A stretch of DNA of 64,000 nt from Hymenobacter edaphi. Lineage in GTDB: Bacteria; Bacteroidota; Bacteroidia; Cytophagales; Hymenobacteraceae. The DNA is taken from the NCBI RefSeq assembly GCF_003258365.1, contig NZ_QHKM01000006.1:124001-188000 (forward strand). The letters run 5' to 3'. Below are positions 2,739 through 39,320 of the stretch, piece by piece. The stretch's first letter is position 1. Every line of letters starts with the position of its first letter. The notes beneath the pieces are model-generated. The model had not been told where the DNA came from. It worked only from the letters and a program-made list of their open reading frames with translations, and ran no database searches. The translations under genes were made by a program, and so were the position numbers.

Positions 2739-5700
2739 ATGGCAGCCCCGCCGCTGCTCGTTGTGCGCTCTATGGAACCTACCGCCGCTGATCCGGCCGC
2801 TTTGCGGGCCGCGCTGGCCGCCCGCCTCGATGCTTCCCGTCGGGAGCTGCTCGACCTGGGCCTGCGCAACCCCCTACTCAACTACCGCGCCTCGCCCGCC
2901 CGGGGCGTGACGGTGGTACGCGAGCAAGCGGCCGCGGTGTACGAGGCGCTGGTGCGGCAGGGCAAAACCATGTACTTCCAACCGGCGCCCAGGCCGAAAC
3001 CGGCCGCCCGCCCCGCCGAGGAAGCCCCCGCCGAGCGCGCCGCCCTGCTCGCCGACAACCGGCTGCAGACCGACGAAACGGCCGACAGGCTGGAAAGCCG
3101 GCTGCTCAATTCCTACTACACCGCCCGCACCAGCCTGGAAGAACAGGGCGTCAACATCCTCTACCTCGCCCTGGGCCAGCTGCAGTGGTACGAGGCCAGC
3201 AGCCGCGCGGAGCCGCGCCGGGCGCCGCTGGTGCTGGTGCCCGTGCTGCTGGAGCGCAGCGGCGCGGCCGAGCGGTTTCGGCTGCGCTACACCGGCGCCG
3301 ACATCGAAGCCAACCTTTCGCTGCAGATCAAGCTCCAAACCAGCTTCGGCCTGAGCCTGCCCGAGCTGGAGGACGACGCCGACGTGGCCGCCTACCTGGC
3401 CGCCGTGGCCGAGGCCGTGGCCGCCCGGCCGGGCTGGCAGGTGCAGGCCGACGCCATTGCCTTGGGCTTCTTCTCCTTCAGCAAGCTGCTGCTCTACCGC
3501 GACCTGGACCCCGCCACCTGGCCCGCCGACGCCGACCTGCTGGCCCACCCCGCCATCGGGGCCCTGCTCGGCCCCGCCGGCTTCCGCGACCCGGCCCCCA
3601 GCGTGGGCGACGACGCGTTTCTCGACACCGACAGCCCGGCCCACGAACTGCACCAGGTGCTCGACGCCGATTCGTCGCAGTTGCTGGCCTTGCTGGCGGC
3701 GCGGGAGGGGCGCAACCTGGTCATTCAGGGCCCGCCCGGCACGGGCAAGTCGCAGACCATTGCCAACCTGCTGGCCGAGGCTATCGGGGCGGGGCAGCGG
3801 GTGCTGTTCGTGGCCGAAAAAATGGCCGCGCTGGACGTGGTTAAGCGTCGGCTCGACGCGCTCGGGCTGGGCGCGGCCTGTCTGGAGCTGCACTCGCACA
3901 AGGCCAACAAAAAGGCGGTGCTCGACGAGCTGAAAGCAACCCTGCAGCTGGGGCGCCCCGCCGCTCCCGCCACGGCCGACCTGGTCAGCCAGCTGCCGCG
4001 CTACCGCCAGATCCTCAACGACTACGCCCTGGCTGTGAATGCCCCGCTGGGCCGCAGCCGCCGCAGCGCCCAGCAGGTAATGGGCGAGCTGCTGCACCTG
4101 CGCCGGCAGTCGGGGGCCGCTGCGCTGCCGCGCGTGGCCTTCGCCGGCCTCAGCCAGTGGACCGACGCCGACGCCGCCCAGGCCGAAGCCCTGGCCGCCC
4201 GCCTGCAGGCCACCTTGCAGAAAATCGGCCCGCCGAAGCAGCTGCCGTTCTGGGGCAGCGAGCTGACGGTGCTGCTGCCCGCCGAACAACACGCTCTGAC
4301 GCAGCGCCTGGCCGCTGCCCAGGCCGCCGTGGCCGCGCTGCCAGCTGCCGCCCAAGCCCTGGCCGCCGCCCTAAACCAGCCCGCCCCTCCCGACCGCCAC
4401 GCCGCCGAAGCCCTGCTGCCCCTGGCCCGGCACGTGCAGCTCGCCCCGCCGCTCACCGGCGCCACCGTGGCCGATGCAGCCTGGATCCGGCAGGCTGCCG
4501 GAATTCAGGCGGTGCTGCAGGCCGGGGCCACCCATAACGCCCTGCGCCGGCAGCACGACGCTGATTGGCTGCCCGAAGCCTGGGGGCAGGATCTGTCGGT
4601 TGAGCGCGCCGCCCTGCTCACCTACGGCCCGAAGTGGTGGAAATTCCTCAGCGGCCGTTACCGCCAGGCCCGGCAGCGTCTGCAGGCGCTTTGGCGCCAC
4701 GCCCTGCCCGACGACAACGCCCCCGTGGTAGCCGCCATCGACGCCCTGCACGAAGCCGCCCGCCACGCGCAAACGGTGGAGGCCGCCCGCCCGCTGCTGA
4801 GCAGCCTGTTTGGCTCCGCGTGGCAGGGGCTGCGCTCCGACTGGCCCGCCCTGCGCCGCACCGCCGACTACCTCACGCTCACCCACCAGCGCATTGCTCA
4901 GGGCCAGCTGCCCCCCAGCCTGCTCACCTACCTGGCCGCCCCGGGTGGTAGTACGGCTCCAGGTCGTGCTGCCAATATCGTTGAACGACCCAGTCCGCCC
5001 GCCGCTCCTGCTGCCGCGTATGCCAACGCGCCGGCCGGATTGCCCGCCGGCCTAACGGCCCTCGAAACCGCCCTGCACCAACACCGCGCCGCCCTGCAGG
5101 CCGTGGCCGATGCCCTGCAGCTCAACGAAGCCCGCCGCTTCGGTCCCGATGGCCGGCTGCAGCTGCAGCCCTTCGCCCAGCAGGCCGCGACGCTGACGAC
5201 CTGGCAAGCCGAGCTGCCCACCCTGCAGCAGACCGTGGAATGGAACAACGCCGCTGCCCAGGCCACGGAATTGCCGGAGCAGCTGTTGCTGGCCGAAAGC
5301 TGGCCCGAGGCCGCCCGGCAGCTGACCGCCGCTGTGCGCCAGACCTGGCTGGAATACCTGCAGCGCCTGGCCTATGAGCAGCACCCGGCGCTGCGCCAGT
5401 TTGAGCGGGCCGCCCACGAAGAAACCGCCGCCCGCTTCCGCGAGGCCGACCGCGCCGCGCTGCACCACCACCGGGTGCGGGCCCTGCTGCGCCACCACCA
5501 GCAGCTGCCCCACCCCCAGGCCGGCGGGCAGATGCTGGTGCTCAGCCGTGAATTCGCCAAGAAAACCCGGCACCTGCCCCTGCGCCGCCTGATGGCGGAG
5601 GCCGGCCGGGCCGTGCAGGCCATCAAGCCGGTGCTGATGATGTCGCCGCTATCGGTGGCCAACTTTCTGCCGCCCGGCGCGGTGGAATTCGACCTGGTAG

Positions 5701-9328: not shown

Positions 9329-9400
9329 GTCAATAAATAATCAGCAAGGAGCAATGCACACCTGATGGCGTAACCGGGGCAGTAGGCGGGCGTAGCCTCC

Positions 9401-9441
9401 TAACTCCTAACTCCTAACTCCTAACTCCTAACTCCTAACTC
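9401..9441. repeat. Heptamer tandem repeat, 5.9 copies of TAACTCC
   Basis: Five perfect copies of TAACTCC plus a sixth partial copy run directly up to the stop codon of the downstream, oppositely oriented EamA gene (stop at 9443-9445). The unit is 7 bp, so the array is free to change length by slippage. It contains no gene. Confidence 0.95.
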
Positions 9442-16144: not shown

Positions 16145-16180
16145 CTAGGAGTGGTTGATGGCGTTGTGAAAATCAGCGCG

Positions 16181-16411
16181 CAGTTGTCATCTACCGCCTC
16201 TGAGTTATCAACTACCTCTTCGCAGGCACCAACTACCGCCTTGCAGATGTCAACTACCACCTCACAGCTATCAACTACTGCCTCACAGGCATCAACTATC
16301 AGCTCCGAGCTATCAACTACCGCCCCACAGCTATCAGCTACCGCCTCGCAGGCATCAACTACCGCCTCGCAGCTATCAACTACCGCCTCCGAGCAATCAA
16401 CTACCGTCTCG
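16181..16411. repeat. 21-bp minisatellite, 11 units, open on both strands
   Basis: Eleven units with consensus CAGCTATCAACTACCGCCTC plus a variable last base. On the plus strand they form an 87-codon frame (GTG at 16151, TAG right after the last unit at 16412) of heptapeptides [QE][LA]STTAS. The 21st base takes all four values, yet the codon is Ser in nearly every unit. On the minus strand a 118-codon frame (16473 to 16117) reads as AVVDSCE heptads. No promoter or known domain supports either as a gene. The flanks (16080-16640) hold only the hairpin at 16123, this array and the gdhA promoter. Confidence 0.9.
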
Positions 16412-16531
16412 TAGCACGTTCCTACTGGCTCTGAGGCGTGCATCCGGCCCGCGCCATTCAGCCGAAACCCCAACTTTTCGCTTACCTAACGACTGTAAGC
16501 CTCGTACACCCTGGTAGTCGGGGAATCCTAC

Positions 16532-36037: not shown

Positions 36038-37519
36038 ATGAAACACCTCTACCTCCTGGCCCTGGCCGGGGCGCTGCTGGCCAGCTGTGACTCGGGCGGC
36101 CAGAAAGGCGGCACCGCCGACGTGGGCGCCGACGCGCCCGCCGACAGCATCAACATCCAGATTGCCGCGCTGCCGCCCAATGAACTGCCCGCCGGCTCCG
36201 ACCCGCAGCAGCTGGCCGAGTTTGCCTGGGCGGAGTTCTTTGCCCTGAACTGGCAGTCGTCGTTTCCGAAGGACGGCAAGCGCGACTCGCCCGACAACAC
36301 GTGGTCGTTTAGCAGCGCCGGCGCCTACCCGCCGCTGGTGGTGTGGGAAACCTACGCCCACCGCACCGAGCTGCGCCCCTTTTACGGCCAGATGCAGGCC
36401 TTCGACAACGCGCCGCACTACAGCTTCGGCGATTCGACCATCCAGGCGTATCCCGGCTCCAAGGCCAGCTTTACCCTGTTCGACAACATCGACGAAAACA
36501 ACGAAATCGGCTCCTGCAACCTGTACGCCCACGCCGACTCCCTGAACGGGCAGCCCAACCCCAACAAGCGCATGGTGCTGTACCAGGCCAAGGTGAACCG
36601 CGACGAGTACGAGTACATCCGGGCCAACTACCCCACCAAGGCCCGGCTGCTGAAGGCCATGACGACCACCGCCGCCAACATCAAAAACACCATGGCCTAC
36701 TACCCCAACGGGAAGGGCCAGGGCTCCTGCGCCTGCCCGCCCGGCGACAGCGTGATTTGCCTGCCCTGCGGCAACACCGCCAACCCCAAGGGCGGCACCT
36801 ACACCGGCGCGATGGAAGTGAAGACCGCCTGGCGCCAGCTCACGGCCCAGGACGACACCAGCACCTTCTTCACCCGCAAGGTGCTCTACTACCGCCAGCT
36901 CAACGGCAAGACCTACTACGACAACGCCGTGTTTGCCCTCATCGGCCTGCACATCATCCACAAGACGTTCAACTACCCGGAGTTCGTGTTTGCCACCTTC
37001 GAGCACAACAGCGTGCGGCAGCCGGGCCAGGGCTACCGCTACGTGCTGCTGAACAAGGGCCGGGAAATTCCCGGCAGCGCCCAGCCCCCGCACACCAAGC
37101 CCATCCTGCCCCTGACCGAGCGCGTGACGGCCGCCGCCCACCGCAAGCTCAAGGGCCTGAACCCGAACTCCATCTGGCTGAACTACCGGCTGGCGGGCGT
37201 GAAGGGCACCCCCACGGCCGATTCCACGGCCGCCAACTTCTTCCTGGCCAACTTCGTGGTGGAGTCGGATAAGACGCTGGCCGACTTCCACGGCAGCGGC
37301 ATCGGCACGCCCCACAACTTCAAGCCGAACATTCTCGCGCCGGGCGGCCTCGTCGCGGGCGGCGGCTGCCAGGGCTGCCACGGCGTGGCCCAGCTCGGCG
37401 GCACCGATTTTTCCTTCCTGCTCGACACCGTGGGCAAGCCCGTGAAGGCTCCCGACATCGACCAGACCCAGCGCCTGAAGCTGCTGCGCTACATCCGCGC
37501 CACCGCCGCCAAGCGCTGA
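36038..37519 (+). CDS. Lipoprotein with a single C-terminal heme-c motif, paralogue 2
   Basis: A 493-residue lipoprotein; the signal [17 protein letters not shown] has lipobox LASC. It resembles the 34361 product in length and layout: [25 protein letters not shown] corresponds to WDIWQSINTL..LPVWETW, and the C-terminal GGCQGCHG carries the single CxxCH. It has an extra Cys-rich insertion [16 protein letters not shown] (about residues 230-245) not seen in its paralogue, possibly a metal site or disulphide loop. [15 protein letters not shown] precedes the heme motif. It is separated from its paralogue by a repeat element and ends at a terminator. Confidence 0.75.
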
Positions 37520-37570
37520 GGCGCCTTTGCGAGGACCGAGCCTGCAGGCGCTGAGGCGCTGGCACGCAAA

Positions 37571-37600
37571 GGCCCGCCTTCCGGTAACGGAGGGCGGGCC
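37571..37600 (+). terminator. Hairpin terminator after the second heme lipoprotein
   Basis: A 13-bp stem with one wobble (37571-37583 with 37588-37600) and GTAA loop. The T-run is weak. Confidence 0.65.
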
Positions 37601-37614
37601 TGTTGATGTGGTAG

Positions 37615-37848
37615 CCGCCCGCAACCGGTTGGGGTGCGCGGCCCCGCGAGCGGAAGGGCACTGCAACCGGTTGCAAGGCCCTTGCCCTTGAGCGGAAAGG
37701 CACTGCAACCGGTTGCAATGCCCCCGCCCCCGAGCCGGAAGGCACTGCAACCGGTTGCAGTGCCCTTGCCCGCAAGCCGAAACCACCTGCAACCGGTTGC
37801 AATGCCGTTCGGCTCGCGGGGCCGCGCACCCCAACCGGTTGCGGGCGG
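37615..37848. repeat. Array of six CAACCGGTTG palindromes at exact 42-bp spacing within 37-bp inverted arms
   Basis: CAACCGGTTG starts at 37622, 37664, 37706, 37748, 37790 and 37832: every interval is exactly 42 bp. Sites 2-5 extend to TGCAACCGGTTGCA or nearly so, and site 4 is a perfect 24-bp palindrome (37741-37764). The 32-bp spacers are related in units 2 to 4 (GCCC..GAGC..GGAA.GGCACTG) but not identical. The outermost 37 bp on each side (37615-37651 and 37812-37848) are perfect inverted copies. It lies between convergent gene ends. All reading frames through it happen to be free of stops, but no gene is indicated. Confidence 0.97.
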
Positions 37849-37853
37849 GCGGC

Positions 37854-38555
37854 CTAGGCGACTTTGCTCTTCGCGGCGCGACGGGCGGCCCGTTTGGCGT
37901 TCTGGTTGGGTAGCGCCGCGTAGTTGAAGAAGGCGCGGGCGTGGTGGGGCGCGGCGTGAAACTGGGCCAGGGCCGTGCAGTGCGCCTGCCACAGACTCTC
38001 GCAGACCTCCCGCCAGTCGAGGCCCAGGTCGCCGATGGTGTCGCTGACGGCTTTTTTGGTGCCGGCCTGCTGCTGGCGGGCGGCCAGCAGCTCGCGGAGC
38101 AGGGCGCGGCCCTGGGTGCCCACTCCGGCGGGCAGCTCGGCGGCGCGGCCGTCGATTTTGTCGAGCAGCACCTGCAGGCGGGTGGGCAGCTCGGCAACGC
38201 TGGCATCGGTGATGCCCTTCAGGCCCTGGGGCAGCAGGTCGAGCAGGGCGGCGGGCTGCTTGCGGTATTGGGGCTTGAAGTGCACGTCGTGGGCCTCGCG
38301 CACCCACTCGTGGATGCTGGCGGTGACGTCGTTGGCGCTGCGGGCCTGGCTCTGGCCGGTGCCGTCCTGGCCGCCGCGCTCGGCGGTGCTCTTTTCCAGC
38401 TCGGTGAGCTGGGCGCCGAAGGCCGCCGCCAGCGCCTTCAGGGCGGCGTTGTCGGTGTTGAGCAGGGCCGCGTGGGTGTAGCGGGCGAAGGTCAGGAATA
38501 CCGGCCGGGCCGCGCGGATGTTGAGGAAATGGTTTTCGTACGGGGCTTCGTACAT
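37854..38555 (-). CDS. Conserved-looking hypothetical protein, alpha-helical
   Basis: I do not recognise this family. The ATG at 38555 gives a 233-residue, mostly helical, soluble protein (MYEAPYENHFLNIRAARPVF...). It is rich in Ala, Leu and Gln with no signal peptide. The final segment AKRAARRAAKSKVA is strongly basic and could bind nucleic acid. The open frame extends 33 codons upstream, but that part is hydrophobic/aromatic and unlikely to be coding. The stop codon lies 6 bp from the palindrome array, and its promoter region faces the ECF sigma gene. Confidence 0.65.
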   Translation of the reverse strand: MYEAPYENHFLNIRAARPVFLTFARYTHAALLNTDNAALKALAAAFGAQLTELEKSTAERGGQDGTGQSQARSANDVTASIHEWVREAHDVHFKPQYRKQPAALLDLLPQGLKGITDASVAELPTRLQVLLDKIDGRAAELPAGVGTQGRALLRELLAARQQQAGTKKAVSDTIGDLGLDWREVCESLWQAHCTALAQFHAAPHHARAFFNYAALPNQNAKRAARRAAKSKVA

Positions 38556-38780: not shown

Positions 38781-39320
38781 TTGTCTGTCCCCGTAGCCGA
38801 ATCGGACCTGATCCGGCGCCTATCCTGCCGCGAAGCCGCGGCCATGACTACCTTCTACGACCTATACGGCCGCACGCTCTACCGCATCATCCGGGCCTTC
38901 GTGCCCGGCGAAGCCGCGGCCGAAGACGTGCTGCAGGAAAGCCTGATCAAGATCTGGAACGGCTTCGGCAGCTACGACCCGGCCCGCGGGCGGCTCTACA
39001 CCTGGGCCGTCAACATCTGCCGCCACCAGGCGCTGGATTATTTGCGCCAGGCCCACGTGCGCGGCGTGGGCCGCACCGATGCCTGGCACGACGTGCCCAC
39101 CGCCGCCGAGCCCGCCGCCAGCGGCGGCTTCGTGCCCGAGCACCTCGACGTGCGCGCCTGCCTGGCCTACTTGCGCCCCGCCTACCGGCGCGTGCTGGAG
39201 CTGCGCTACTTCGAGGGGCTGAAGCTGGAGGAAGTGGCCGAGCTGCTGGCCCTGCCCCTGGGCACCGTGAAAACCCAGCAGCGGCAGGCTTTGCGGCAGC
39301 TGGCCGGGCTGTGGCGCTGA
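38781..39320 (+). CDS. ECF-type RNA polymerase sigma factor
   Basis: A 179-residue sigma-70-family protein. Region 2 covers LYRIIRAFV..AAEDVLQESLIKIWNGFGSYDPARGRLYTWAVNICRHQALDYLR, and region 4 covers YRRVLELRYFEGLKLEEVAELLALPLGTVKTQQRQALRQL with its helix-turn-helix. The start is TTG at 38781. Unlike many ECF genes it has no anti-sigma gene next to it, since the following gene is on the opposite strand; a linker of about 35 residues joins regions 2 and 4. The SigK/SigM-like class (DPARG..LYTWAVNICRN) is suggested. An inverted repeat 65 bp upstream could be its control site. Confidence 0.9.
   Translation: MSVPVAESDLIRRLSCREAAAMTTFYDLYGRTLYRIIRAFVPGEAAAEDVLQESLIKIWNGFGSYDPARGRLYTWAVNICRHQALDYLRQAHVRGVGRTDAWHDVPTAAEPAASGGFVPEHLDVRACLAYLRPAYRRVLELRYFEGLKLEEVAELLALPLGTVKTQQRQALRQLAGLWR

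Follow-up and report, generated by a model that had tools for sequence, protein, structure and literature searches.

A phased palindrome array and its adjoining gene in Hymenobacter edaphi suggest a DNA-binding family with private arrays

What maintains six identical palindromes at one fixed interval between two bacterial genes? The window analyzed here (the whole 64,000-nucleotide stretch of Hymenobacter edaphi DNA) contains such an array of CAACCGGTTG, situated in the 334 bp that separate convergent genes ending at 37519 (forward strand) and 37854 (reverse strand) (Table 1). The six starts and the 42-bp interval reported in the initial annotation are correct: every copy is exact, and the interval holds for all five steps. 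The array was also detected by Tandem Repeats Finder, and it forms a long inverted repeat with 108-nt arms that are 85% complementary. At one mismatch or fewer, the only other copies of CAACCGGTTG in the window lie at 3056 and 41610, each with one mismatch. A coding tandem repeat, which the initial annotation had raised against its own reading, was not found; this candidate was rejected because the array is intergenic and periods of 41 and 43 bp occur among its relatives. The window holds two further repeats: a 21-bp tandem repeat at 16179-16415 (11.3 copies and a higher-order period of 63 bp, in no open reading frame of at least 150 aa) and the heptamer CTCCTAA at 9397-9441 (6.4 copies, no mismatch), a candidate slippage tract.

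Table 1. Positions of the array, its sites, and the surrounding features in the window
Feature	Position	Strand	Basis or remark
Array of six 42-bp units that together form an imperfect inverted repeat of 234 bp	37615..37848	.	Repeat and inverted-repeat analysis
Site 1, CAACCGGTTG, sixth counted from the partner gene	37622..37631	.	Exact match
Site 2, CAACCGGTTG	37664..37673	.	Exact match
Site 3, CAACCGGTTG	37706..37715	.	Exact match
Site 4, CAACCGGTTG, within a perfect 24-bp palindrome (37741-37764)	37748..37757	.	Exact match
Site 5, CAACCGGTTG	37790..37799	.	Exact match
Site 6, CAACCGGTTG, first past the partner-gene stop codon, 12 bp off	37832..37841	.	Exact match
Terminator-like hairpin belonging to the convergent gene; not part of the array	37570..37601	.	
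Partner gene, 233-aa protein, array directly 3'	37854..38555	-	Helical in model; no Pfam/NCBIfam/PADLOC match
Codons of FFNYAALPNQNAKR: conserved FF motif, then the proposed specificity tail NQNAKR	37890..37931	-	Position computed from the protein
Convergent neighbor gene, 493 aa	36038..37519	+	No Pfam match
ECF sigma factor gene, on the array's far side beyond the partner gene	38781..39320	+	

The initial annotation overlooked the adjoining reverse-strand gene, the likely partner of the array, and it overlooked that each gene-array pair has a core of its own. In Hymenobacter gummosus (L037), an array with the window core and different spacers lies behind a gene 63% identical to 37854-38555, and the two arrays have different neighbors on their far sides. 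The arrays of L025 and L073 likewise lie behind relatives of the partner gene. Searching with the partner protein retrieved homologs from 39 of 204 family genomes, with up to nine matches per genome; the main set comprised 70 fetched places plus L025, L037, and L073. A first, cruder finder placed an array within 500 bp downstream of 59/71 homologs and upstream of 0/72, with controls at 0/71 (shuffled downstream sequence) and 0/120 (520-bp segments of the window). A better finder, based on the identity and symmetry of a 14-bp segment at a period of 41 to 43 and run on the downstream sides of the 70, scored 65/70 stretches above the maximum of 70 shuffles and left 5/70 homologs without an array; these homologs are not independent (e.g., L102/L103, L097/L098, and L025/L141; L095 is the window, and L278 coincides with L115).

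Searching the order with a profile yielded hits in 22 of 390 genomes and, with weaker earlier matches, 38 further usable loci, among which 16 had a downstream array, 15 an upstream array, and 7 none. The upstream test covered 600 bp at 19 loci picked for an absent downstream array (null maximum, 1.06), and 15 of these 19 distant members had an array there. Most upstream-array loci belong to a distant clade that is homologous to the main clade (hhalign probability, 99.9%; E value, 3e-35). Taken together, the linkage of gene and array, with cores specific to each array, is real and strongly supported.

Neither Pfam, NCBIfam, PADLOC, nor PHROG gave a meaningful match for 25 members of the partner family. 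N8 and F210 are the only invariant residues of the family alignment. The AlphaFold model, built from four sequences, is all-helical and of moderate quality (pLDDT, 71.1; pTM, 0.44). No recognized DNA-binding fold was found in the protein, and Foldseek retrieved no significant match to the model from the PDB; S23/IVP-like bundles (2gsc and 2rld) were discarded as not significant (E values of 0.73 and 2.4). Cargo explanations were also set aside. Neither the window protein nor one protein of the DUF6261 family (discussed below) had a plasmid match, and a phage origin of the window family is unsupported, with no confirmed match in viral contigs. One unannotated 6.3-kb "Bacteriophage sp." record matches that DUF6261 protein and lacks a 41- to 43-bp array.

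The array set consisted of 46 arrays with 235 units and 23 cores as first called, a count that is approximate because L140 was first called out of register and the registers of L125 and L156 are uncertain. Five units were present in 24 arrays and six in 14. Of 189 steps, 139 were 42 bp, 26 were 43 bp, and 24 were 41 bp; spacing in relatives, which the initial annotation had singled out as a weak point, thus varies by one base only. Within-array identity was 0.92 to 0.98 in core columns and 0.73 to 0.79 in the center, versus 0.37 to 0.65 in the spacers. These identities and steps, together with the H. gummosus array that shares the core and not the spacers, bear out the earlier proposal that selection acts on site and phase. 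The earlier picture of an invariant palindrome among drifted spacers is accurate inside the window array, but the palindrome changes between arrays, where cores other than that of the window include GCACCGGTGC and CCGCATGCGG. Random substitution of the palindrome was not seen; cores are instead swapped as a set between gene copies. The arrays also share a lax symmetric motif, approximately GAAGG[GC] at -16 to -11 and GCCTTC at +10 to +15, with single-base frequencies of only 0.39 to 0.57. No base exceeds 0.57 in any column outside the core of the 46-array profile, which rules out a GT[AG]G foot.

Because pairing within middle units was no higher than pairing with other units (0.921 versus 0.923 at d1-5 and 0.440 versus 0.456 at d6-16), hairpins are not the selected feature, and a single hairpin or cruciform per unit was rejected; first units, which are often terminator-like, are an exception. 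Core changes comprised 58 single and 31 asymmetric double changes versus 6 symmetric doubles. Given the lack of compensatory pairing, it is a symmetric DNA site that is kept, not a hairpin. This site is conserved as sequence, as it is for dimeric sequence-specific DNA-binding proteins with clustered operators. We consider it quite unlikely that the array acts as RNA, whether as tandem hairpins or as stacked terminators in the 3' untranslated region of the gene. Such a role would agree with the very stable folding of 37520-37866 (z, -14.4) and with the units that reach at least 75% pairing in d7-19 (15/46 first, 8/143 middle, and 5/46 last units). It would not explain why compensatory changes are absent at the unit level, why G-T exceeds A-C mismatches only mildly (163:118 at d<=9 on the G-rich sense strand), why the array is upstream in distant members and DUF6261 genes, or why core sequence is kept within each array beyond symmetry alone. 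The structured RNA suggested by the initial annotation accordingly finds no backing in unit-level covariation. Rfam returned 23 matches for 37400-38000 of the window at an E value of <=1, none of which reached the gathering score; the microRNA-like matches among them were dismissed as subthreshold and are most likely a palindrome artifact.

Among 44 of the 46 array-bearing proteins, those with the same core were closer (mean identity of 0.604 versus 0.325 otherwise; 0/5,000 permutations), but cores change quickly on the tree. Within one clade (14 homologs, 13 of them distinct), each residue found in the column immediately after the C-terminal FF motif goes with a single site: G accompanies CAACCGGTTG, L accompanies TACGCGCGTA, and Q accompanies GACGTACGTC, with D and E both corresponding to [CG]CGG-N4-CCG[CG] arrays once L140 is put in register. 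L133 is 81% identical to L135, yet it has the tail and core of a clade that is only ~60% identical to it. Tails are basic, with a charge per residue of +0.157 versus +0.012 for bodies.

This covariation was quantified over 1,830 pairs from 61 of the 70 loci, leaving out the identical L141, four fragments or sequences without a recognized tail (L104, L106, L115, and L157), and four loci at or below the null score (L105, L146, L153, and L164). Half-site similarity correlated with the tail when the body was controlled for (partial r, 0.249; 0/5,000 free permutations, which allow for the tree only through the body term) but hardly with the body when the tail was controlled for (0.064). An 8-column scan along the protein peaked at the tail (0.212; next, 0.136). 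By body identity, the correlation between half-site and tail was 0.703 (>0.7), 0.595 (0.5 to 0.7), 0.298 (0.35 to 0.5), and 0.15 (<0.35). Recurring tail-core pairs include NP[GAS]R with GCCAC, RNxxR with GCACC, GGK with GCCGC, [DE][TM]GGGKK with TCCGG, L[IV]SKxG with GGTACG, and RN[IV]K with CTTCTT. An open fragment of 71 codons (L283), examined because of its GCACCGGTGC array and 56% identical to the end of the window protein, has the tail VRNATR, which resembles those of other GCACCGGTGC owners (KRNTQR, QRNARR, TRNPKR, and KRNGQR). The tail EMGGGKKAKLP is common to L132 and L140, as is the site TCCGG-N4-CCGGA. The core initially predicted for L132 (CCTCCGGAGG) did not match, agreement came only once L140 was re-registered, and the predicted half-site also belongs to D tails.

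The correspondence has exceptions. RNxxR is not exclusive to GCACC, as L099 and L102 (NRNPGR) have GCCAC, and CAACCGGTTG accompanies two unlike tails, NAKR and AGRxxxGPK. At 16 further loci, prediction from the nearest tail gave a mean half-site similarity of 0.43, compared with 0.50 for the nearest body and 0.36 at random; near-identical or similar tails agreed for L252, L280, and L281, and similar tails failed for L250, L279, and L282. In the upstream clade, the tail is nearly constant and cores differ. On balance, the sequence comparisons indicate that the tail likely reads the core in the main clade.

Since tail and array adjoin, covariation could also arise if the gene's 3' end were exchanged jointly with the array and another protein bound the sites. 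The upstream clade is in part consistent with such linkage, as 5 of the 12 residues separating L269/L273 from L270 fall at positions 14 to 24, the end on the array side. In six same-core groups, which were picked after the table had been inspected, same-core pairs had a tail identity of 0.77 with 49% of identical codons synonymously changed, versus a body identity of 0.67 with 29% changed; for 69 different-core pairs at equal body identity (0.68), tail identity was 0.31. The greater synonymous drift of tail codons than of body codons argues against a recent block transfer of tail and array. Tail residues were kept despite this drift, and the remaining tail and the spacers differ, which makes joint exchange an unlikely source of the covariation.

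Same-core arrays also occur away from the gene. The H. edaphi genome (6.04 Mb) contains 16 exact copies of CAACCGGTTG, 14 of them in three 42-bp arrays, versus 3 for a reversed control pattern, so these arrays are beyond chance. Besides the window array and two isolated copies, there are three exact CAACCGGTTG and one CAACCAGTTG at C21:113035-113170 and five CAACCGGTTG sites at C36:350711-350888. The latter array is adjoined by a second 42-bp array with the core GGCACAGGTGCC (L006 1719-1906). No owner of GGCACAGGTGCC was found among the three homologs seen in this genome; the second and third were rejected as owners, as their arrays read ATTCCGGAAT and TCATGAGTACTCGTGA. Pairs of CAACCGGTTG (steps of 27 to 57 bp allowed) were present in 5 of 204 family genomes; of 17 forward pairs, 16 had a step of exactly 42 bp, and the other, which comes from another genus and encloses a third site, had a step of 43 bp. 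The related-genome search proposed in the initial annotation thus found the phase kept, but the distribution is patchy, with exact CAACCGGTTG pairs in 0/7 genus relatives. Pairs of GCACCGGTGC (same steps allowed) were present in 7 of 204 genomes; 41 forward pairs were counted, and among the 40 listed, 38 were at 42 bp, one at 41, and one at 43. The GCACCGGTGC array is gene linked in five of the seven (G063, a fragment; G073; G101; G146; and G071, which is L113), and no homolog was found in the 3-kb loci around the GCACCGGTGC arrays of G091 and G153. For both cores examined, copies of the cognate palindromes that adjoin the gene are thus also present at other genomic places. Two records show repeats at about half this period: three CAACCGGTTG copies spaced 21 and 22 bp apart in Adhaeribacter (L048 1499-1551) and approximately twenty 21-bp repeats resembling CAGCCGGTTGTAACGGATTCC, possibly coding, in a Treponema record (L055 2116-2550).

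A scan of genome contigs allowing steps of 37 to 47 bp retrieved 65 stretches, of which the 5 in Hymenobacter were all at 42 bp; CAACCGGTTG pairs of unrelated bacteria had mixed steps. Pairs at many steps in such bacteria (e.g., Collinsella) are consistent with a regulator site, so that the arrays might be no more than a cluster of operators for a regulator of a putative LacI-type or similar family. For the arrays described here, this explanation is highly improbable: cores vary between arrays, the linked gene has no HTH-family match, and main-clade arrays lie 3' of it.

Both gene-array pairs and unlinked arrays are gained and lost within the genus, as two comparisons indicate. In G001 (~91% nucleotide identity), the neighbors of the window locus are kept, and 769 bp of other DNA replace ~2 kb comprising the array, the partner gene, and the sigma factor gene; the ortholog of the 36038..37519 gene has neither array nor partner gene beside it. 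At the C36 site, the gap of 422 to 473 bp in H. edaphi corresponds to 66 bp in G003 (with flanks 94 to 95% identical), 141 bp in G001, and 103 bp in G005, each with a terminator-like hairpin by eye. The gap in G006 is 336 bp and contains other repeats (several copies of CATGTCGAGCTTGTCGAGACAT), and those in G002, G004, and G007 are longer. Because a different repeat-like sequence fills the G006 gap, this intergenic site seems to attract repeats.

Such turnover would suit a selfish pair similar to REPtrons, in which the protein spreads or maintains arrays of little cellular function. The unlinked same-core arrays (C21 and C36 of H. edaphi, L054, L063, and several genomes for GCACCGGTGC), the absence of the C36 arrays from the same site in G003, G001, G005, and G006, and the patchy occurrence of homologs noted above all fit this possibility. 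However, the 25 members gave no Pfam match to HUH/Y1 transposases at an E value of <=1; the family has no invariant His or Tyr; copies are few (a genome carries one to three arrays of either of the two cores searched); target duplication was not noticed; and phase and copy number have been kept long, resembling selection for binding. We therefore regard a selfish pair as rather unlikely, although it can be compatible with a docking array.

A second gene family has similar arrays. In Tannerellaceae, L064 carries seven 42-bp units, five exact, of CCAACCGGTTGG (2088-2373) before a DUF6261 gene; the core is as in Hymenobacter, and the neighboring protein is unrelated. A 41- to 42-bp array was found within 500 bp upstream of 10/21 DUF6261 loci (20 were taken from 10 of 395 phylum genomes, and the other is L064, which is biased towards having an array because it was located through one) and downstream of none; in L174 and L178, the array is slightly further upstream than 500 bp. 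DUF6261 (PF19775) resembles the partner family in being a ~240-aa family with a 41- to 42-bp array beside the gene, and it differs in that its arrays are upstream and homology is undetectable. DUF6261 was rejected as a homolog at the profile level, with no profile match and hhalign probabilities of 0.4 and 0.9%. A structure model of the L064 protein (pLDDT, 45.6) was set aside.

Because relatives of the gene carry arrays of the same rhythm with different palindromes, the data suggest an undescribed DNA-binding family with private arrays. The partner protein probably binds its own array as a dimer, with the array as a private docking platform; we infer physical binding, the dimeric state, and tail contacts from comparative sequence data. 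Among the three roles proposed in the initial annotation (a binding platform for a dimeric protein, a nucleoid or boundary site, and a structured RNA), predicted binding of a dimer is the best supported, and a nucleoid or boundary site is a possible role. A dimer of the small helical protein would recognize each ~12- to 14-bp symmetric site, in the main clade via the short basic tail behind the conserved FF motif. Five or six dimers would then occupy one DNA face, four helical turns apart, and could form a multivalent platform with candidate roles in autoregulation, looping or bridging of array loci, transcriptional roadblocking at gene ends, or self-maintenance of the pair. A broader proposal, which we hold tentatively and consider somewhat doubtful, is that the main family, its upstream-array relatives, and DUF6261 (by convergence or very remote kinship) make up a large unrecognized class of Bacteroidota DNA-binding proteins with private, helically phased arrays. 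Main-clade specificity would reside in approximately six residues of a basic tail that is itself interchangeable, this natural recognition code would turn over fast along with every unit of the array, and several paralogs would mark and possibly bridge distinct chromosomal places within one cell. If correct, the proposal would assign a molecular function to an unannotated protein family and make its dozens of natural protein-site pairs, with their differing cores, ready material for working out a compact DNA recognition code. The concerted change of the core in all units, and the coexistence of up to nine members per genome, would then be the puzzle to address.

Our search of the open-access literature found neither arrays of this kind nor a function of DUF6261 described; DUF6261 is named in one paper on a different subject. 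Among known systems, CRISPR arrays have near-identical long repeats with unique spacers, whereas only a 10- to 12-bp core is repeated here and the spacers are related. Type III toxin-antitoxin systems (ToxIN) have a short gene beside approximately five tandem repeats of ~35 to 45 nt, a likeness in layout; in contrast, the main-clade array is downstream, its units share mainly the core, and RNA-level covariation is absent. ParB/parS, MatP/matS, and SlmA/SBS pair palindromic sites with a dimer that marks centromeres or chromosomal domains. Palindromic dimer sites (predicted here) and possible multivalent or trans bridging are common to both, but the partner protein matches no known DNA-binding family, and here the arrays are phased and the sites change with each gene copy. 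REPtrons consist of a RAYT/TnpA-REP gene with its own REP palindromes (PMC6006769). They differ from the present pairs, which lack an HUH/Y1 match and a GT[AG]G foot and have symmetric sites in a strict 41- to 43-bp array, few copies, and no selection for a hairpin in each unit. The two have in common a gene with cognate palindromic repeats adjoining it, copies elsewhere in the genome, repeats specific to each gene, and a patchy distribution.
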